From IMG/VR virus record IMGVR_UViG_3300037502_003419, positions 1 to 37,718 of that record: 37,718 bases of DNA; one strand, given 5' to 3'. A program made the translations under genes and the position numbers. Under the pieces are notes generated by a model. The model had not been told where the DNA came from and made no database searches. It saw only the letters and a list, made by a program, of their open reading frames with translations. Positions 5,975 through 29,545 of the stretch are shown here, piece after piece. Position 1 is the stretch's first letter; the number at the start of each line of letters is the position of its first letter. The DNA is from a virus.

Positions 5975-6679
5975 ATGCCTAGAAATTACAAGGTTAGTAA
6001 AGAGGTTAAGATTAAAGCTTGTGAGGATTATCGTGTTGGTAAAGGGAGCTATGATGCTATTGCTAAAGCTATAGGTGTCAACAGTACTACACTGCGAGAA
6101 TGGTACTCTGCATTTATCTATCACGGATCCTCAGCTTTTGATTCAAGTATTAGAAACAAAGCTTATTCTAAACAGTTCAAGACTGCTTTAGTAGAGTTGC
6201 ACCTATCAGGAGAAGTTTCGGCAATGGAGCTTAGTGGTAAATACAATATTCCACTTGCTATGGTGAAGTGTTGGATTAAAAAGTACAATGGAGGTATAGA
6301 ACTTAAGGATTATGATCCGAAAGGAGAAGTCTATACCATGAAATCTCGAAAGACAACTTACGAAGAACGGCTTGAGATTGTAAAGTGGGTTATTGCAAAT
6401 AACCTTAACTATAAGGATGCTGCTGAAAAATATGGTATTAAATATGCTTTAATTTACCAGTGGGTACAGAAGTATCTAAAAGATAACGAAGTTTCTTTAG
6501 AATACAAAAAAAGAGGACCAAAAGGAAGCTGTAAAATAGATGAGTCGGAACTTGATGATATTGGCAAACTCAAAATGGAGCTGGAACGGGAGCGGATTCT
6601 TAGAAAACATGCAGAATTCAGACTTGAGCTTTTTAAAAAAAAAGAGGAATTCGAGAGAAAAATAAATTCACGAAAGTAA
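5975..6679 (+). CDS. IS3-family transposase OrfA (DNA-binding subunit)
   Basis: This 234-residue protein has repeated helix-turn-helix units: about 10-45 (KIKACEDYRVG, YDAIAKAIGVNSTTLREWY), 60-100 and 120-160 (NYKDAAEKYGIKYALIYQWV), followed by a coiled-coil-like tail (ELDDIGKLKMELERERILRK). It binds the IS ends. Near the 3' end, nine A residues (6635-6643) allow -1 slippage into the OrfB frame to make the OrfAB transposase. The ATG at 5975 has GGAGG six bases upstream within a hairpin. Its length and multiple HTHs fit the longer OrfA proteins of the IS150 group. Confidence 0.9.
   Translation: MPRNYKVSKEVKIKACEDYRVGKGSYDAIAKAIGVNSTTLREWYSAFIYHGSSAFDSSIRNKAYSKQFKTALVELHLSGEVSAMELSGKYNIPLAMVKCWIKKYNGGIELKDYDPKGEVYTMKSRKTTYEERLEIVKWVIANNLNYKDAAEKYGIKYALIYQWVQKYLKDNEVSLEYKKRGPKGSCKIDESELDDIGKLKMELERERILRKHAEFRLELFKKKEEFERKINSRK
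6635..6643 (+). other. Programmed -1 frameshift run (A9G) joining OrfA to OrfB
   Basis: OrfA reads TTT AAA AAA AAA GAG here. The -1 frame is closed by TAA at 6634-6636 and open from 6637 to 7557, so slippage must occur on the A run. A-rich slippery runs before OrfB are normal in IS3-family elements. Confidence 0.75.
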
Positions 6680-6738
6680 GAAACGAAGCAGATTACCTTG
6701 TTGTTGATTATTATAAAGAGCAAGGTTATTCTGTAAAA

Positions 6739-7557
6739 ATGATTTGCAATGAACTTGGTATTTCTAGAAGCGCTTATTATAAAAATCAAGTTCGAATACC
6801 ACCCCAAAAAGAAGCACAAGACGAGTTGTTATGCTCTTTAATCAATGGGTATCACGCAACCTTCGACGGCATCTTAGGCTACAGACGAATGACTATATTT
6901 ATCAATCGGCTGAATCAAGCTACTTACTGCGAAAGATATATTCATCGCCTCATGAAGAAAATGAAAATCTCTGCACGCATCAGACGAAGAAAGGTAAATC
7001 GTAAAAGAGTTAGACCGGATTATGTGAAAGAAAACATATTGGCACGAGATTTCACTGCGAGCATGCCTAATGAAAAATGGTTAACGGATGTAACCGAATT
7101 TTCGATTCCGTGTGATAACCGAAAGTTGTATTTGAGTCCGATATTGGATCTTTATGATAACAGCATTGTGGAATATGAGTTGTCGTTTAGCAATAACAAT
7201 ATTTTAGTCTTTAAAATGTTTGATCGAGCAGTACGAAACAATCCGACAGCAAAACCGATTTTTCATAGTGACAGAGGTTTCCAGTACACAAACAACACTT
7301 TCAAATGTAAGCTTGATGGTGCTGGTATGACTCAGAGTATGTCCCGAATTGGTAAATGCATTGATAATGGCCCGATGGAAGGCTTCTTTGGAATTCTAAA
7401 GACAGAAATGTTTTATGGAAAAAAGTTTGAATCTATGGATAATCTGATAGAAAAGATTAGATCATATATCACCTTCTATAATGAAAAAAGGTTTCAAAAA
7501 AGACTTAAGTGCTTGGCTCCGATGGACTATCGTAACCAAGCACCTGATATTGCATAA
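6739..7557 (+). CDS. IS3-family transposase OrfB (DDE integrase core)
   Basis: Counted from the ATG at 6739, this is a 272-residue catalytic domain. Residues about 28-90 form the HTH_21-like region (GILGYRRMTIFINR). The rve core follows, with catalytic D117 (WLTDVTEF), D178 (FHSDRGFQYT) and E214 (NGPMEGFFG). The D-35-E spacing and the terminal YITFYNEKRFQ block are characteristic of IS3. The frame is open from 6637, so the natural product is probably an OrfAB fusion made by -1 frameshifting and not a protein starting at 6739. The triad is intact, so the element may still be active. Confidence 0.92.
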   Translation: MICNELGISRSAYYKNQVRIPPQKEAQDELLCSLINGYHATFDGILGYRRMTIFINRLNQATYCERYIHRLMKKMKISARIRRRKVNRKRVRPDYVKENILARDFTASMPNEKWLTDVTEFSIPCDNRKLYLSPILDLYDNSIVEYELSFSNNNILVFKMFDRAVRNNPTAKPIFHSDRGFQYTNNTFKCKLDGAGMTQSMSRIGKCIDNGPMEGFFGILKTEMFYGKKFESMDNLIEKIRSYITFYNEKRFQKRLKCLAPMDYRNQAPDIA

Positions 7558-20018: not shown

Positions 20019-21248
20019 TTATTCCTCCTCTCCCTCTGTTTTCTTTGCAAATGCACCGGCATCATGGAGTTTGGTCATGTTGCCATTGATCAGATACAGA
20101 TCGCCTCCAAGGTCAGCAGGAATACGGTTTAAGTCTTCAAGCTCTCTAATATCATTGGCTGAAAGCCAGCCATTTTGGCGACCTACCGCATAACCGTTCA
20201 TCCTCGACTGATAATCCCCTCTCAGCAGTCCATCCACATTAAACTTAATAAAATACTCTTTCTTTTCTGCGTCTGTCAGCAGCGCCTTTTGCAAAGCCAT
20301 CTCCCAACGAACCACCCAAGGGTCAAGGGTATATTTTACAAACTCCAGCGATTGTTGCTCTATATTAGAAAAGCTCGACTTCTCAAGATCTCCTATCATG
20401 TGTGGAGGTATCCTAAAAATTCGAGCGATCTCATTAAGTTGAAATTTTCTTGTAGCAATAAATTGTGCCTGTTCTGGAGGAATTCCTATGGGTGTAAACT
20501 TCATGCCTTCTTCCAACACCGCGACTCGATGGGCATTCCCACTTCCCTGATAGACAGCGTTCCAACTCTCTCTGATTCTTGCCGGATCTTTGACAATACC
20601 AGGATGCTCTAATACACCACCAGGATTCGCACCATTGGAAAAGAACTTGGCACCATATTCCTCTGTAGCTATAGCCATGCCTATTGCATTTTTTGCCATA
20701 GCAATAGGGGATTGACCTATAAGACCGTCAAAGCCAAGACCTGGAATGTGCAAGACATCCATTTTACTCAATGTAACTGTGCCGGTATCCTTGCGGTATT
20801 GATAAAAAATCTCTCCCGTTGGAGTCCGATCCACTTCCATTCGATCCGGAAGAAGCGGATACAGAGCCATCACTTTTCCTCGACCGTCTCTAATTATTTG
20901 AGCAAACGCATTGCCCCACAAAACAAGGTGCAGGGTCAACAATTCTCTAAACACAAAGGAAGTCATCTCCGGGTTTGGCTCATCATGGAGCAGTCTATAT
21001 ATTGGAGAGTCTTTTGCTTTTTCTTTTCCGCTTTCTGTATGCCTGTAGACATGCAGCGGCAGACTGGCTAATGTTTCAGCTAATATCCTAACACAGGCAT
21101 AGACAGTTGTTGTCTGCATAGCTGTTCTTTCGTTGACAGTCTTTCCGCTTGTCGTTCCTCCAAAGAAAAAACTGTAGGTTGTGTTGGAAAAGCTATTCTT
21201 TGGGCCAGCTCTTGAATTAAAGAACCTAGATAAAAAAGGAATTTTCAA
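20019..21248 (-). CDS. Portal protein (HK97 family)
   Basis: TTG 21248 has AGGAGGTGG seven bases upstream. The 409-residue protein shows the HK97 portal pattern: VYACVRILAETLASLPLHVY, FRELLTLHLVLWGNAFAQII, MDVLHIPGLGFDGLIGQSPI, FFSNGANPGGVLEHP, IARIFRIPPHMIGDLEKSSF and NIEQQSLEFVKYTLDPWV. It forms the dodecameric DNA channel at the capsid vertex. It lies immediately after the terminator of the two-gene RHH cassette, which separates it from the terminase gene. Confidence 0.97.
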   Translation of the reverse strand: MKIPFLSRFFNSRAGPKNSFSNTTYSFFFGGTTSGKTVNERTAMQTTTVYACVRILAETLASLPLHVYRHTESGKEKAKDSPIYRLLHDEPNPEMTSFVFRELLTLHLVLWGNAFAQIIRDGRGKVMALYPLLPDRMEVDRTPTGEIFYQYRKDTGTVTLSKMDVLHIPGLGFDGLIGQSPIAMAKNAIGMAIATEEYGAKFFSNGANPGGVLEHPGIVKDPARIRESWNAVYQGSGNAHRVAVLEEGMKFTPIGIPPEQAQFIATRKFQLNEIARIFRIPPHMIGDLEKSSFSNIEQQSLEFVKYTLDPWVVRWEMALQKALLTDAEKKEYFIKFNVDGLLRGDYQSRMNGYAVGRQNGWLSANDIRELEDLNRIPADLGGDLYLINGNMTKLHDAGAFAKKTEGEEE

Positions 21249-21276
21249 ATGTTACCACCTCCTAAAAATGGGCATG

Positions 21277-21307
21277 AAAAAAGCACCTTCGATTTGAAGA
21301 TGCTTTT
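21277..21307 (-). terminator. Rho-independent terminator closing the RHH cassette
   Basis: On the minus strand AAGCATCTTC pairs with GAAGGTGCTT around a 5-base loop (21281-21305, one T-G pair), followed by TTTT. It lies between the unknown 147-aa gene and the portal gene and makes the cassette a separate transcription unit. Late transcription must pass it to reach the portal. Confidence 0.85.
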
Positions 21308-21322
21308 AATATTTCGCGTAGA

Positions 21323-21766
21323 TTATTCTTCAACCAATATACTTTTTAGTTCTTCATAATTTCTCTTTGGTGTTTCTTTTTGACTAAACTTTAATTCTTC
21401 GAAGATCTTATGTTTCATGCTAGATTTGGCTGCCAAAGATAAAGCAAGCATATTTTGGAAATCTTGAAAAGACCCACATGCAATAATTCTTCCGACAATT
21501 TTACTTAACCAATTATACGTTACCCACTTGCAATCTAAAATTTTAGCAACAGAACCTGCTAAATTTAAATGTAACATCGACCCTTTAGGCATAGAAATCT
21601 TTACTAAAGCCAAAGCAGCAGCATCTTCTAATATTTCATCTCCATCCTTTAATTTAAAAGGTCCAGTACAAGTAGTCCCTCTGTCTCCAAAGTCTGACCA
21701 AGCAATGATTTCTGGATAAGTTGAAAGTAAAACTATGGATTTTCCAATTTCAGTAATATCTCTCAT
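21323..21766 (-). CDS. Unknown 147-aa protein, second gene of the terL-portal cassette
   Basis: I do not recognise this protein. It begins MRDITEIGKSIVLLSTYPEI, contains WSDFGDRGTTCTGPFKLKDG, ALALVKISMPKGSMLHLNLA and SVAKILDCKWVTYNWLSKIV, and ends with a charged helical tail. No signal peptide, membrane segment or known catalytic motif stands out. The ATG has GGAGG with good spacing. It is 36 bases downstream of the RHH-protein gene, under the same promoter and before a terminator. The pairing of a DNA-binding first gene with an unknown partner suggests a moron, such as a toxin-antitoxin-like or exclusion function. That function is inference only. Confidence 0.85.
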   Translation of the reverse strand: MRDITEIGKSIVLLSTYPEIIAWSDFGDRGTTCTGPFKLKDGDEILEDAAALALVKISMPKGSMLHLNLAGSVAKILDCKWVTYNWLSKIVGRIIACGSFQDFQNMLALSLAAKSSMKHKIFEELKFSQKETPKRNYEELKSILVEE

Positions 21767-21802
21767 TTATTACTCCTCCCTCTCGTTAGATGCTTAGTGT
21801 AA

Positions 21803-22222
21803 TTAGGTTATTTTATATACAATAGCATTGTTTTTACTGAGTTTTGGTTTTTTATTGTCATGATAAGCTCTTCTAACGTTACTAAAGTCTCCATGGCCTA
21901 TTTGGTTTTTAAAGTTTCTACCAATTTGTGCTCGAACAGCACTAGGCTTACCATTACATGACATTTCAATATTCTTAAAGGTTTTTGAAACAGTCAAAAT
22001 ATCAAATTCTTTTGGTACTCCAGGAGTATTAATATAGACCTTAATTTCCTCCAACACCTTATTTGTCAATACTGATATCGGTAACTGTTTATTGCTTCCA
22101 ATACCATATAATGAACTAAGCTTTTCATTCACAAGAGCAGAAACACTAATTCCAAGTGTTTGTGCTTCTTCCTCTAATTTTTGTTCTAACTCAGAACTTG
22201 GATAAAACTGAATTCTTTTCAT
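21803..22222 (-). CDS. Ribbon-helix-helix protein with DUF1413-like C-terminal region
   Basis: This 139-residue protein has an N-terminal RHH/Arc-CopG-type segment (MKRIQFYPSSELEQKLEEEA, then LGISVSALVNEKLSSLYG) in which strand, helix, turn and helix can be followed. The C-terminal half (FDILTVSKTFKNIEMSC, RAQIGRNFKNQIGHGDFSNV, NNAIVYKIT) resembles DUF1413 regions in its LGR-Fk-type centre. A consensus promoter with a large inverted repeat lies directly upstream, so it probably represses its own cassette. ATG 22222 has AAAGGAG upstream. The RHH call rests on pattern; the DUF1413 link is less certain. Confidence 0.8.
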   Translation of the reverse strand: MKRIQFYPSSELEQKLEEEAQTLGISVSALVNEKLSSLYGIGSNKQLPISVLTNKVLEEIKVYINTPGVPKEFDILTVSKTFKNIEMSCNGKPSAVRAQIGRNFKNQIGHGDFSNVRRAYHDNKKPKLSKNNAIVYKIT

Positions 22223-22248
22223 AATGGTGGCTCCTTTATATAATAATT

Positions 22249-22305
22249 AGTGACTAACTCTATCACTATGGATTATAACACCGTTTAGCGATAGAGTCAA
22301 TCACT
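22249..22305 (-). promoter_or_regulatory. Consensus promoter with a 16-bp inverted-repeat operator for the RHH cassette
   Basis: On the minus strand TTGACT (22300-22295), a 17-base spacer and TATAAT (22277-22272) form a near-perfect sigma-A promoter. Flanking it, AGTGATTGACTCTATC (22305-22290) and GATAGAGTTAGTCACT (22264-22249) are inverted copies matching at 14 of 16 positions. One arm covers the -35 and the other lies at the expected start of transcription, ideal for repression by the RHH protein encoded downstream. Confidence 0.88.
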
Positions 22306-22317
22306 ATTCGGCGAATA

Positions 22318-23943
22318 TTATATAAGGAGAATGCCCCTATCATCATAAACCGAAGTACTCGTATCATTGCCACAGCGAATTGCTCTATCTAGAGCCATAA
22401 TAGCGGCTACAGCACCATCTATCTTTTCTGTTGACTTCTCTTTATCTGGTTTAATGTTACCCGCCGGATCAGTACGAATAAAAATATTATCCATCATCCA
22501 TCTAAGAACGGGATGCCCACCATGTGCGACCTTTTCCTCCAAGGTTAGTTTCATAAGTTCCTTGGTTGGCGGACTCATGTCTTTGAATCCCTGCCCAAAC
22601 GGGACAACGGTAAATCCCATACCCTCAAGGTTTTGTACCATCTGAACTGCACCCCAGCGGTCAAAGGCAATCTCTCGAATATTATATTTCTCACCAAGAC
22701 TTTCAATAAACTTCTCAATGAAGCCATAATGCACAACATTACCTTCAGTAGTCTTAATAAACCCTTGTTTTTCCCATACATCATAAGGAACATGGTCACG
22801 ATTTACTCTAAGATTAAGGGTTTCTTCCGGCAACCAAAAATAGGGTAGAACAACATATTTATCATCTTCATCTTCTGGTGGAAACACCAGTACAAAGGCT
22901 GTTATATCTATGGAACTTGAAAGGTCTAGGCCTCCATAGCAAACTCTTCCAAGCAAGTCTTCCTCATCTACTGCAAAAGCACATTTATCCCACCTATCCA
23001 TCGGCATCCATCGAATTGCTTGTTTGACCCATTGATTAAGTCTTAGCTGCCTAAATGTATTCTCTTCTGCAGGATTTTGCTTTGCAGATTCACAAGCGGC
23101 TTTTACCTTGTCGATTCCCACAGTAATTCCTAGACTTGGATTTGCTTTTTTCCATGTTTTTGGATCAGTCCAATCATCTGATTCTTCCGCTCCATAAATT
23201 ACAGGATAAAATGTAGGGTCGACCTTTCGCCCTTCCAGGAGGTCTTTCGCTTTTTGATGTGTCTCATAGCAGATAGATTTGGTGTCTGACCCTGCAGTGG
23301 TAATAAGAAAATACAGCGGTTGGGTTCTTGCATCACCAGAACCCTTAGTCATAACATCAAAGAGTTTTCTATTAGGCTGCGTATGCAACTCATCAAAAAC
23401 AACACCATGTATATTAAAGCCATGCTTTGAATAGGCTTCCGCTGAAAGCACTTGATAAAAACTGTTTGTCGGCTGAAAAATAATACGCTTTGTTGCCGAC
23501 AAGATTTTAACTCTCTTACTAAGTGCCGGACTCATGCGCACCATATCGGCTGCAACTTCAAATACTATCGATGCTTGCTGACGATCTGCTGCACAACCAT
23601 AAACCTCAGCTCTTTCTTCGCCATCACCGCAACAAAGAAGTAGGGCAACAGCAGCCGCCAGTTCTGATTTCCCCATCTTCTTCGGTATCTCAATATAAGC
23701 CGTATTAAACTGTCTATATCCATTTGGTTTAAGTGTTCCAAAAATATCTCTGATTATTTGCTCTTGCCAATCTATAAGTTCAAATGGCTTTCCTGACCAT
23801 TTACCTTTGGTATGGCTCAAACACTCAATAAAGTTGACCGCATAGTCTGCAGAATCTTTATCGTAATAAGAGCCCTTTGCCATAAAAGCTGTTGGCTTAT
23901 ATTTCTTCAACTTTCTAATATGCGGCCACCTCCTTACAGGCAT
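22318..23943 (-). CDS. Terminase large subunit (Terminase_1 family)
   Basis: This 541-residue DNA-packaging motor has an ATPase with a Walker-A-like IPKKMGKSE (86-94) and Walker B VVFDE (181-185), and a C-terminal RNaseH-like nuclease starting at about 320 (CYGGLDLSSSIDITAFVL), with later acidic residues (FDRWGAVQ, STEKIDGAVA). It cuts and pumps genome DNA through the portal. The ATG at 23943 has only a weak SD. An excellent AAGGAGGTGG lies inside the first codons, best spaced for an ATT codon at residue 9, so the true start is uncertain. The cassette promoter begins right after the stop. Confidence 0.97.
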   Translation of the reverse strand: MPVRRWPHIRKLKKYKPTAFMAKGSYYDKDSADYAVNFIECLSHTKGKWSGKPFELIDWQEQIIRDIFGTLKPNGYRQFNTAYIEIPKKMGKSELAAAVALLLCCGDGEERAEVYGCAADRQQASIVFEVAADMVRMSPALSKRVKILSATKRIIFQPTNSFYQVLSAEAYSKHGFNIHGVVFDELHTQPNRKLFDVMTKGSGDARTQPLYFLITTAGSDTKSICYETHQKAKDLLEGRKVDPTFYPVIYGAEESDDWTDPKTWKKANPSLGITVGIDKVKAACESAKQNPAEENTFRQLRLNQWVKQAIRWMPMDRWDKCAFAVDEEDLLGRVCYGGLDLSSSIDITAFVLVFPPEDEDDKYVVLPYFWLPEETLNLRVNRDHVPYDVWEKQGFIKTTEGNVVHYGFIEKFIESLGEKYNIREIAFDRWGAVQMVQNLEGMGFTVVPFGQGFKDMSPPTKELMKLTLEEKVAHGGHPVLRWMMDNIFIRTDPAGNIKPDKEKSTEKIDGAVAAIMALDRAIRCGNDTSTSVYDDRGILLI

Positions 23944-25427: not shown

Positions 25428-27164
25428 TTAATTTTTTTCTTCTAATTGTGTATACCAAACAATGCCGGACAGCACAAAGCACACATTAGGCAAAGCTACT
25501 CCATTACCCCACATCTTATATTCAGCAGAGTCAGAATGCGGATTCTTTAGCCACTTAGATATTTGCCTTAGTGTCTTGGCTTTTGAATAACTGCCGGTCA
25601 CTTTACGGTGTGTTTCAAATATGTCATACCAAGCGCGAAGGTCATCCATCGTTGGGTTTTCTATCCCTAAATCACTACACCACCAATCCGGGAAACCCTG
25701 CAGCCTTGCACACTCAGTTGGAGTTAGTCTTCTCACCGTATAATCTATCCCGTCATTATCATTGATAAGTGGTGGATCCTTGTAATCTGTAGCCACTAAA
25801 GTATTGGCCAGTTCCTCTTTGGCATCTGTAAAAAACGATGCCTTACTGGATGAGTAGGTAGGAGTTGCAACAGCACTGGGACCTTGTGCCTTCAGTGTTG
25901 AATTAATTCCATCTTCAGTAATTCCAAGGTTTCTAGCATAGTTTTGACCGCAGTTAAATGACTCTCTATCAATGGCATAGACCACAGCGTGTTTATCTAC
26001 TGTATTTAAAGTAAAGCTAAGCTCTTCATTCACACCATCACCTTGAGGTCCATTCTTATCTGCCCTTCCTATCATAGAACCTTGTAAACCATAAGATTCC
26101 ACCACTGCAATACCACCTTGATTGCTGTCCGGTGCATTACCCGACGTATCAATCGTTCTTGCCGTATCACTTTCGTAAACATTGGAACGGGCATTTACAG
26201 TTCCTTCCGAGGTAAATCGCACATCATAAGTCTTAGAATTCTCCACAACAAATGGTTGGTTGTTGCCGCCTGTTCCATAGGTCGCTGAAATCGTTGGTGC
26301 AACATCTATCGGTCCAGTAAAACGTGTATCCTTTCCGTGATTATCAAAAACTGCAGAGTCCATGATGCAAGGAGGATGATTTGATTTCGCTCTTAAAGTG
26401 CAAGTGATATCGGTTGTCACATCCATTCGTTCTCCGCCTTGGTCATTTAAGCAGATTGTGCCTGTCTCTCCAGTGCTGTCTGCAAAGTTGCTGGCAGTTC
26501 CTTGCCACGAGCGGATGCTCTTTTTAGAATACCCAGACAAGCCTTCTGACTTAAATAGTATTTCTCCGGCACCCCCACCTGCAAAATCTGCGACAAGGAA
26601 GATACGTTTTCTTCGTTGGGGAACTCCCCAGTATTGAGCGTCAAGTACTCGCCAGGCAAGGGAAAAATGATCTCCCACAATAGTTCCTGCTTGTTTCCAT
26701 TTATCAATCTTAGGAACTGATAAGGTTTCATCCTTGATGTGGCAGATGCCTTCAAGGACACATCTGAAATCTTCTCCTTTGTTTGATGAGAAGGCTCCAG
26801 GGACGTTTTCCCAGACAATATATCTTGGTTTTTTGCCATCTGTAGCACACCTCATTTCTTTTATAATTCGGATGGCTTCATAAAAAAGACTTGAACGTTT
26901 ACCATCCAAGCCATCACGCTTACCTGCTATGGATAAATCCTGACAAGGTGAGCCAAAAGTAATAATATCTACCGGTTCTATCTTACTGCCATCCATGTAA
27001 GAAATATCGCCGTAATGTTTTATAAAAGGCAGCCTTTTCGTTGTGACCCTAATAGGAAACGGTTCAATCTCCGATGCCCATACTGGGGTAATACCAGAAA
27101 TTAAACCGCCTAAAGGAAAACCACCTGAACCATCAAAAAGACTGCCAAGGGTTAATTTATCCAT
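25428..27164 (-). CDS. DNA (cytosine-5-)-methyltransferase
   Basis: ATG 27164 (SD GGAGG in the end of the upstream gene) gives 578 residues. Motif I is LFDGSGGFPLGG at 9-20, motif IV the catalytic GSPCQDLS with C74, motif VI ENV at 119-121, and motif VIII the later QRRKRIFLV. A large variable target-recognition region (about residues 200-480) precedes the C-terminal TPTECARLQGFPDWW and a final GNGVALPNV motif X. It methylates phage DNA, probably against host restriction. It overlaps the ParB-methyltransferase gene. The methyltransferase motifs are complete. Confidence 0.96.
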   Translation of the reverse strand: MDKLTLGSLFDGSGGFPLGGLISGITPVWASEIEPFPIRVTTKRLPFIKHYGDISYMDGSKIEPVDIITFGSPCQDLSIAGKRDGLDGKRSSLFYEAIRIIKEMRCATDGKKPRYIVWENVPGAFSSNKGEDFRCVLEGICHIKDETLSVPKIDKWKQAGTIVGDHFSLAWRVLDAQYWGVPQRRKRIFLVADFAGGGAGEILFKSEGLSGYSKKSIRSWQGTASNFADSTGETGTICLNDQGGERMDVTTDITCTLRAKSNHPPCIMDSAVFDNHGKDTRFTGPIDVAPTISATYGTGGNNQPFVVENSKTYDVRFTSEGTVNARSNVYESDTARTIDTSGNAPDSNQGGIAVVESYGLQGSMIGRADKNGPQGDGVNEELSFTLNTVDKHAVVYAIDRESFNCGQNYARNLGITEDGINSTLKAQGPSAVATPTYSSSKASFFTDAKEELANTLVATDYKDPPLINDNDGIDYTVRRLTPTECARLQGFPDWWCSDLGIENPTMDDLRAWYDIFETHRKVTGSYSKAKTLRQISKWLKNPHSDSAEYKMWGNGVALPNVCFVLSGIVWYTQLEEKN

Positions 27165-28392
27165 CAGCAACCTCCAGTTCATCATAGTTGTAGCTCAGCC
27201 CATCCCTTTGGACGCTGACATCAGTAGAAGTTCCGACCTGTTCAATGTAGCGTTTGATAATGACATCGCAAAACTTTTCATCTAATTCTGCCGTGTAGCA
27301 AATGCGCTCTGATTGTTCACAAGCAATTAAGGTGCTACCACTGCCGCCAAAAGGATCTAGCACAATGGTGTTAGTCATCGAGGAGTTCAAAATCGGATAG
27401 GCGAGCAGAGGGATAGGTTTCATCGTAGGATGGTCTCCATTTCTCTTCGGCTTATCAAATTCCCAGATGGTGGTTTCTTTCCTGCCCGTATACCACTGAT
27501 GCTTGCCTTTCTTTTTCCAGCCAAACAGCACAGGTTCGTGCTGCCATTGATAAGGAGAACGCCCCAGTACAAGTGAGTCCTTTTTCCAGATACAACAGCC
27601 AGACAAATAAAAACCGGCATCCGAGAAAGCTTTTCTAAAATTAAATCCTTCGGTGTCGGCATGAAATACATAGATGGAGGCATCGTCTGCCAGAACTTCT
27701 TCGATGTTGATAAAGGCATCTAAGAGGAACTGGTAGAAGGCATCATTTCCCATATGGTCATTTTTAATCTTTCCTGCAGTGCCTTCATAATTCACATTGT
27801 AGGGAGGATCTGTTACACACAAGTTTGCCTTCTTTTTATTCATCAGCACATCATAGGTTTCTTCCTTGGTGGAGTCACCACAAATAAGACTGTGTCTGCC
27901 AAGCGTCCAGATGTCACCAAGCTTGCTGATGGCAGGCTTTTTTAGTTCTGTCTCCACATCAAAGTCATCATCGTGGATCCCCTCTTTCAGCGTGTCTTTA
28001 AATAAGTCATCCAGTTCTTTAGGGTCAAATCCAGTTAGGGAAACATCAAAATCTACACCTTGTAAATCTGAAATTAAAAGGGCCAATTTATCCTTGTCCC
28101 AATCACCGCTGATTTTATTGAGCGCGATGTTGAGTGCTTTTTCTTTTTCTTCGTCCATTTCAATGATGACACACTCAACTTCTGTGATGCCCATATCCAT
28201 GAGAACCTTCAGTCTTTGATGCCCACCAACAACATGGCCGGTCACCTTATTCCAGATAACCGGCTCTACATAACCAAATTGTTCAATGGATCGTTTTAAT
28301 TTATCGTATTCTGCATCTCCTGGTTTCAAATCTTTACGAGGATTGTATGTTGCAGGGATGAGGTCCTTTGTGTTCTTCTTTTCAATCAACAT
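27157..28392 (-). CDS. ParB-domain adenine/N4-cytosine DNA methyltransferase
   Basis: The N-terminal 110 residues are a ParB/Srx-type domain (LIPATYNPRKDLKPGDAEYD, VIWNKVTGHVVGGHQRLKVL). The methyltransferase part has catalytic DPPYNV at 195-200 and, near residue 355, the SAM-binding DPFGGSGSTLIACEQ. Catalytic motif before SAM motif marks the beta class. It modifies adenine or cytosine in phage DNA; the ParB-like head may help choose or hold the target. ATG 28392 overlaps the metK stop by 11 bases, so SAM supply and methylation are linked in translation. The next gene is a C5 methyltransferase. Confidence 0.95.
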   Translation of the reverse strand: MLIEKKNTKDLIPATYNPRKDLKPGDAEYDKLKRSIEQFGYVEPVIWNKVTGHVVGGHQRLKVLMDMGITEVECVIIEMDEEKEKALNIALNKISGDWDKDKLALLISDLQGVDFDVSLTGFDPKELDDLFKDTLKEGIHDDDFDVETELKKPAISKLGDIWTLGRHSLICGDSTKEETYDVLMNKKKANLCVTDPPYNVNYEGTAGKIKNDHMGNDAFYQFLLDAFINIEEVLADDASIYVFHADTEGFNFRKAFSDAGFYLSGCCIWKKDSLVLGRSPYQWQHEPVLFGWKKKGKHQWYTGRKETTIWEFDKPKRNGDHPTMKPIPLLAYPILNSSMTNTIVLDPFGGSGSTLIACEQSERICYTAELDEKFCDVIIKRYIEQVGTSTDVSVQRDGLSYNYDELEVADG

Positions 28393-29545
28393 ATTTGTTT
28401 ACCGCCTCCCTTAGTTCTGTATAGCAATCTAAAAATTCCCACGAGCTTAATCCATATCTGAAATGGCCGTAAGTAGCTGTATCTGCATAAATGACATCCG
28501 TCAGTTTTAGCTTTTCGATAATGGCTGCAGGTCTTAGATTGAATACATCTAACACAGCACGGCAAAGGATACTTTCCTCAACCGTCCCTGTTCCAAAGGT
28601 ATCAATCTCAAGAGCAACAGGATCTGCTTTTCCAATTGCATAGGAAATCGCTACCTGGCATCGCTTAGCAAAGCCACATCGAACGATATTCTTTGCAATC
28701 GCCCTTGCCATATAGGCACCACTGCGGTCAACTTTTGTCGGGTCTTTTCCTGAAAACGCACCGCCACCATGAGCGGCTAATCCGCCATAGGTATCAACCA
28801 TGATTTTTCTTCCCGTAAGACCGGTATCAGCTGCTGGTCCACCTTCAACAAATCGTCCACTAGGATTAATAAGGATCTCAGTCTCAACGTCAAATGGATA
28901 CTTCTCAAAGACAGGCCAAAGTACCTGGGCAATGACTTCCTTTCGCAAAACATCTAAATCTTTATCTGCACTGTGTTGAACGGAGACAACGATGGTCTTA
29001 ATTCGTTTTGGTTTGTCACCTTCATATTCCACCGTCACTTGAGCCTTACCATCTGGGCCAATGTCTTTGATTACACCATTCTTCATCACCTTATCCAGCT
29101 TTTCGCAAATGGCATGGGATAAGACTAAGGGGAGAGGTAGTTTCTCACTAGTTTCATTGGTGGCATAGCCATAAACGGTGCCTTGGTCACCAGCACCTAA
29201 CATGGAATACCATGACGTATCACCCTCACGAGATTCCAATGCCCTATCCACACCACCTGCGATATCTTTACTTTGTTGATGGACATAGACAAAGACTAAA
29301 AACTTTCTAGGATTGTAGCCCACATCCGTAAGAACACGGCGGACAACACCTCTAATGTCAATTCTCTTTGAGCAGGTAATCTCACCGGCAACAATGATGT
29401 GTCCTTTGGTTGCCATCACCTCGCAAGCAACACGAGAGGATTTATCTTTTCTTAAACATGCATCTAAAATGCTATCTGAAATAAGGTCACATAGTTTATC
29501 GGGATGACCTTTACATACACTTTCACACGTTTTATATTTTTTCAT
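28382..29545 (-). CDS. metK: S-adenosylmethionine synthetase (phage-encoded MetK)
   Basis: This 387-residue enzyme makes SAM from ATP and methionine. GHPDK (13-17), GAGDQG (117-122) and GGGAFSGKDPTKVDRS (260-275) are the ATP- and methionine-binding motifs and are intact; length matches bacterial MetK. It lies between terminase small subunit and two DNA methyltransferases and overlaps the ParB-methyltransferase start, so it probably provides SAM for methylating phage DNA. The ATG has GGAAAGGA upstream, two bases after the terS stop. MetK carried by phages in this gene order is known in Bacillota. Confidence 0.97.
   Translation of the reverse strand: MKKYKTCESVCKGHPDKLCDLISDSILDACLRKDKSSRVACEVMATKGHIIVAGEITCSKRIDIRGVVRRVLTDVGYNPRKFLVFVYVHQQSKDIAGGVDRALESREGDTSWYSMLGAGDQGTVYGYATNETSEKLPLPLVLSHAICEKLDKVMKNGVIKDIGPDGKAQVTVEYEGDKPKRIKTIVVSVQHSADKDLDVLRKEVIAQVLWPVFEKYPFDVETEILINPSGRFVEGGPAADTGLTGRKIMVDTYGGLAAHGGGAFSGKDPTKVDRSGAYMARAIAKNIVRCGFAKRCQVAISYAIGKADPVALEIDTFGTGTVEESILCRAVLDVFNLRPAAIIEKLKLTDVIYADTATYGHFRYGLSSWEFLDCYTELREAVNKYVD

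Follow-up and report, generated by a model that had tools for sequence, protein, structure and literature searches.

A putative self-regulated moron cassette between the terminase and portal genes of a Firmicutes siphophage

In a 37.7-kb virus record from IMG/VR, analysed here over all of its 37,718 nt (the window), two small genes stand between the terminase (TerL) and portal genes. Why should a phage keep them there, and what could they do? An earlier note on this DNA had taken the pair, an RHH protein and a 147-aa protein of no recognised family, to be a moron that is expressed in the lysogen and represses itself. Our analysis indicates that the pair is quite probably an autonomous, autoregulated moron cassette situated in a TerL-portal recombination hotspot of a Firmicutes siphophage, where it likely serves the dormant phage.

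Layout and regulatory sequences of the cassette

The minus-strand gene order is TerL, RHH gene, orphan gene, portal, Clp-like protease and capsid. Both cassette ORFs and both flanking genes were found where the earlier note had placed them, and a promoter, an inverted-repeat operator and a terminator can all be recognized in the sequence (Table 1). Lambdoid morons have their own promoter and terminator inside the late operon. The cassette resembles them in having a predicted autonomous promoter and terminator, read from sequence only, between two late genes. It differs in its additional RHH autoregulator with a paired operator and in a terminator sequence that is conserved across unrelated cargo.

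Table 1. Coordinates of the cassette, its signals and its flanks in the window
Feature	Position	Strand	Evidence or comment
TerL, upstream flank of cassette	22318-23943	-	Pfam TerL_nuclease E 2.3e-48, TerL_ATPase 2.5e-20
Portal protein, downstream flank of cassette	20019-21248	-	Pfam Phage_portal E 2.3e-130
139-aa RHH regulator ORF	21803-22222	-	RHH residues 1-40, predicted winged helix residues 43-139
147-aa orphan ORF	21323-21766	-	Second cassette gene; chimera
Orphan residues 1-118	21413-21766	-	75% aa identity to L005 ORF2; dN/dS ~0.25
Orphan last 30 codons with stop	21323-21412	-	From 3' end of L005 ORF3
Operator arm 1, TAGTGATTGACTCTATCGCTA, overlaps -35	22286-22306	-	Inverted-repeat search; shuffles
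Promoter TTGACT-17-TATAAT, extended TG	22272-22300	-	Promoter scan; counterparts in L003-L006
Operator arm 2, TAGTGATAGAGTTAGTCACTA, over expected transcription start	22248-22268	-	Inverted-repeat search
Terminator hairpin AAAAGCATCTTC-AAATC-GAAGGTGCTTTT then U	21279-21307	-	Fold, covariation
Conserved post-terminator segment TTCATGCCCATTTTTAGGAGGT, reaching portal ribosome-binding site	21257-21278	-	Hairpin alignment
Recombination breakpoint	22334	.	blastn vs L088, L089, L008; 100-nt identity profile

The promoter had been described as near-perfect. It does match at 11 of 12 positions and is the best of six promoter-like sites in 1.6 kb; however, it is not significant when taken alone, since 5.3 such sites are expected in shuffled sequence. 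The operator, reported earlier as a 14/16 inverted repeat, turned out to be stronger than that. Its inverted arms, each of 21 nt and complementary at 18 of 21 positions, lie 17 nt apart with the promoter between them, and none of 30 shuffles contained one as good. No further operator copy was present in the window within three mismatches (0.04 expected).

The placement of a promoter between two arms recurs in relatives, and corresponding promoters are found in loci L003-L006. This recurrence of the predicted arrangement is stronger evidence than the single-site statistics. The operators of L003 and L006 have AGTGATTGACTC arms like those of the window, whereas the operator of L005, whose RHH protein is 32% identical, lies in the same place with arms of a different sequence (TTTAGGTAGTAAC). 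Taken singly, the operators of L004, L007 and L017 do not reach significance. A change of RHH type is accompanied by a change of operator sequence, which lends indirect support to the proposal that the cassette represses itself. A symmetric operator over its own promoter is also what characterizes a CopG/Arc-type RHH repressor, and the cassette appears to possess one.

The cassette ends in a hairpin with a 12-bp stem followed by a U-run (-14.4 kcal/mol, z -3.7; 0 of 200 shuffles as good). A consensus scanner did not call this terminator, probably because the scanner counts part of the U-run as stem. The same hairpin is common to cassettes with unrelated cargo. In an alignment of 28 distinct copies, 98.9% of cells are paired, and there are 15 both-side changes against 2.7 in shuffles, none of 500 of which scored as high. 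One U-G wobble is conserved in 26 of the 28 hairpins (alignment columns 8 and 27; window 21279-21307). No Rfam family matched near any gathering score. Sequence is also kept beyond the U-run (TTATGCCCATTTTTA). Just upstream of the portal gene at position 4385 of L173, the TGCCCATTTT-AGGAGG segment is present again although the hairpin is a different one; the downstream motif is thus retained independently of the stem.

An exact 25-mer of the hairpin region occurs in eight IMG/VR contigs, in every one directly upstream of the portal gene. A 21-mer of the hairpin, with up to two mismatches, occurs 15 times in 391 genomes (reversed control, 0). Some of these occurrences are at TerL-portal junctions; in others the gene that follows encodes a tape-measure (L193, L199), scaffold (L191, L195) or capsid (L198) protein, and a related stem, GCACTTAC/GTAGGTGC, is often present there. 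We therefore rejected the idea that the hairpin is exclusive to the TerL-portal junction; it is a broader terminator of prophage late operons. Where the hairpin with the TTATGCCC motif stands upstream of these three kinds of late gene in other prophages of Clostridia (L189-L203), it may flag further moron sites.

The terminase-portal junction in related phages

TerL profiles recruited 80 viral and 80 genome loci, the best 80 of each collection by TerL identity. With the window and earlier loci included, 160 loci had TerL and a readable portal gene; 88 were adjacent (100 nt or less between the two genes) and 72 carried inserts (more than 200 nt). With the window and five cargo-recruited loci set aside, 154 TerL-recruited relatives remained, 88 with empty junctions and 66 with inserts; this proportion describes the best matches by TerL identity and is neither a random sample nor a population estimate. 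Adjacency, which the earlier note had called normal, is thus the commoner state in this set, but inserts are frequent.

The cargo is unrelated between loci. It includes ParE/RelE toxins, RelB antitoxins, an MNT-HEPN pair, Abi_2, Fic, TipAS, PAPS-reductase-like proteins matching the SspD, BrxP and DndC models of PADLOC, a flavin reductase with an HxlR regulator, a group II intron reverse transcriptase and many unknowns. In Erysipelothrix phage phi1605 (L170, 3566-4060), an annotated putative aminoglycoside nucleotidyltransferase occupies the junction and is followed by the same hairpin. Inserts that end in the hairpin (30 loci) begin at a median distance of 111 nt downstream of TerL, with promoter scores of at least 9 in 16 of the 30. 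In contrast, the 18 co-directional inserts without the hairpin start at a median of 14 nt after TerL, and only one reaches this score, as does one of the 88 empty junctions. Based on this offset and these promoters, one kind of insert looks autonomous and the other appears to ride on the late operon.

In a TerL tree with 148 rows, 35 changes are needed to explain which junctions are empty and which are filled, at least 15 of them forced by well-supported branches. Pairs of loci show gain and loss directly. L087 (1278 nt between the genes) and L117 (10 nt) have flanks that are 94% and 89% identical, and L106 and L129 carry different cargo between flanks that are 94% and 97% identical. The window itself is 90.7% identical in nucleotide sequence to the empty-site loci L088, L089 and L008 over 3.7 kb, ending 16 nt before the TerL stop, and only 69% identical to them past the cassette. 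We rejected a clean insertion into L088-like phages, as the right flank differs. Since the window lies at a breakpoint, clean insertion between conserved flanks can be demonstrated for other loci and not for its own cassette.

The 11 TerL rows closest to the window (the nearest at 97% aa identity) are all empty. As the earlier note had anticipated for a moron, the pair is absent at this site from close relatives and from most relatives overall. Together with the variable cargo and the cassette's own predicted promoter, operator and terminator, this supports the moron reading.

No paper on a TerL-portal hotspot was found in the open-access literature. The P2/P4 hotspots are comparable in that they have a fixed position near packaging/portal genes and are either empty or hold exchangeable anti-phage, toxin-antitoxin and Abi genes. 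They adjoin cos, whereas the site described here lies between TerL and portal, and unlike them, many of the cassettes here share one 3' hairpin and motif. The defence activity of P2/P4 hotspots has been tested experimentally, while the present cassette is known from its nucleotide sequence. Candidatus Heliusviridae/Heliusvirales (PMC9226167) is the group to which annotated phages resembling the window in TerL, portal, protease and capsid have been assigned. The window also has an SNF2-like helicase, but of the nine signature genes of that group only part was seen in it.

Two other regions of the window deserve mention. In the phage's downstream region, two ORFs with HTH transposase and rve integrase domains form an IS3-like insertion (5975-7557, plus strand). 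At 25428-29545 (minus strand), an S-adenosylmethionine synthetase lies beside an N6/N4 methylase with a ParB-like domain and a C5-cytosine methylase; a comparable pair of synthetase and methylase is present in Streptococcus phage Javan630.

The two cassette proteins and alternative readings

An AlphaFold2 model of the 139-aa RHH protein (mean pLDDT 83) predicts a CopG/Arc-type fold at the N-terminus (Z 5.5-6.2 over 40 residues; CopG Z 5.5, Arc Z 5.8), and a CopG profile matches with E 0.03. The remainder (residues 43-139) is modelled as a DUF1413/LP1413-like winged helix, for which LP1413 of SCCmec (PDB 6btc) is the best solved match (Z 6.8). These Z values are moderate, and Foldseek matches of the model were all weak (best E 0.26 in PDB). 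The DUF1413 profile matches two RHH relatives weakly (best 5.8e-5); the L003 homologue, at 23.6 bits, stays below the gathering cut-off of 25, and the window protein itself is not matched. More distant RHH-DUF1413-like genes in two genomes stand upstream of small membrane-protein-like ORFs. LP1413 is a DUF1413 protein that binds single-stranded DNA; unlike the cassette regulator, it has no RHH domain and adjoins a helicase gene (PMC7581432, PMC6851490). CopG/Arc repressors share with the cassette regulator the fold of the first 40 residues and an autoregulated promoter, predicted in the case of the cassette, but the cassette regulator has an extra winged helix and a pair of long operator arms rather than one short site.

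Profile searches, proposed in the earlier note, gave no useful match with either cassette protein; tblastn of both proteins against phages and plasmids gave none, and neither matches a PADLOC defence model. The second protein had been described as a 147-aa protein without known family. It indeed has no family match in Pfam, PHROGs, NCBIfam or PADLOC, and its structure model is poor (pLDDT 44); its description as one protein needs correction, however. The sole relative that we found is ORF2 of L005, with none among genome contigs and none in 391 genomes of one class, a search that had no positive control. Over the first 118 codons the two share 75% aa identity (dN 0.14, dS 0.56; dN/dS ~0.25), a measure of constraint that rests on one pair, as the orphan has one relative, and that cannot date the fusion described next. 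The final 30 codons agree at 78 of 90 nt with the 3' end of ORF3, a separate 110-aa gene of L005. Sequence comparison with L005 therefore indicates that the 147-aa protein is a chimera of two genes, fused by an in-frame deletion. In one genome (L184, 1495-2574), the Zn-ribbon-like ORF3 of L005 is apparently fused to a P-loop kinase-like protein.

The chimeric tail may reflect decay, and the whole cassette could be a remnant that no longer functions, with its second ORF a broken fusion. The in-frame deletion fits such a history; the promoter, operator, ribosome-binding site, both reading frames and terminator are all intact, which makes it quite unlikely.

The earlier note had also suggested a toxin-antitoxin function. 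In a type II system, the RHH protein would be antitoxin and self-repressor and the 147-aa protein the toxin. The gene order and the predicted autoregulated promoter fit this arrangement, the RHH model resembles the antitoxins AtaR, VapB and TacA (Z 5-6), and genuine toxin-antitoxin pairs occupy the same site in other phages. However, matched inheritance is not seen. RHH homologues stand without any partner in L003, L004, L006 and L007, and the orphan gene has its match in a different phage group from the RHH gene and its operator. Nor is there coevolution, since against L005 the conserved part of the partner is 75% identical and the RHH protein 32%. Moreover, where an antitoxin would have a disordered tail that binds the toxin, the C-terminus is predicted to be a folded winged helix, and no toxin family in Pfam, PHROGs, NCBIfam or PADLOC is matched by the partner. 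Taken together, these observations do not support the suggestion, and we consider it improbable.

The lone RHH genes raise another alternative, in which the RHH-DUF1413 protein would be the functional part, as a phage regulator or a nucleic-acid-binding factor acting in trans, and the second gene would be incidental. In its favour, the gene stands alone in the four relatives and is under constraint where this was measured (L003 vs L004: dN 0.14, dS 1.0), and LP1413 binds single-stranded DNA (PMC7581432, PMC6851490). Against it, 88 relatives with similar structural genes lack the RHH gene, and a search of the window and of L004's 42-kb record for a second target of the RHH operator found none. 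We regard this alternative as unlikely.

Proposed mechanism and significance

Under the preferred reading, an autonomous and self-regulated moron cassette, the RHH protein would bind both operator arms as an oligomer and repress its own promoter. Repression would fix the expression level of the pair in the lysogen, at a time when the late operon is not transcribed, and the terminator would stop the cassette transcript from running on into the portal and capsid genes. The payload would be the 147-aa protein in a reduced form, with one gene lost and its tail fused on. Other phages have toxin-antitoxin, Abi, MNT-HEPN and PAPS-reductase-like genes at this position, and on that ground the payload would most likely benefit the lysogen against competing phages. 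An exclusion or defence role of the pair is plausible from this company at the site.

A far more specific version can be offered as speculation, and we think it very unlikely to hold. Here the RHH-winged-helix protein would be a nucleic-acid-responsive repressor, whose LP1413-like domain binds the single-stranded DNA of a replicating invader, freeing the promoter and switching on an interchangeable payload. The shared 3' hairpin and motif would serve as insulator and as homology for payload exchange at several late-operon junctions.

In conclusion, the TerL-portal junction of this widespread group of Firmicutes phages is a place to seek prophage-borne toxin-antitoxin and defence genes, and the conserved hairpin with its TTATGCCC motif offers a searchable flag for autonomous late-operon cassettes. 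The RHH and DUF1413-like protein with its exchangeable operators would provide a tractable case of a regulator that is swapped together with its binding site.
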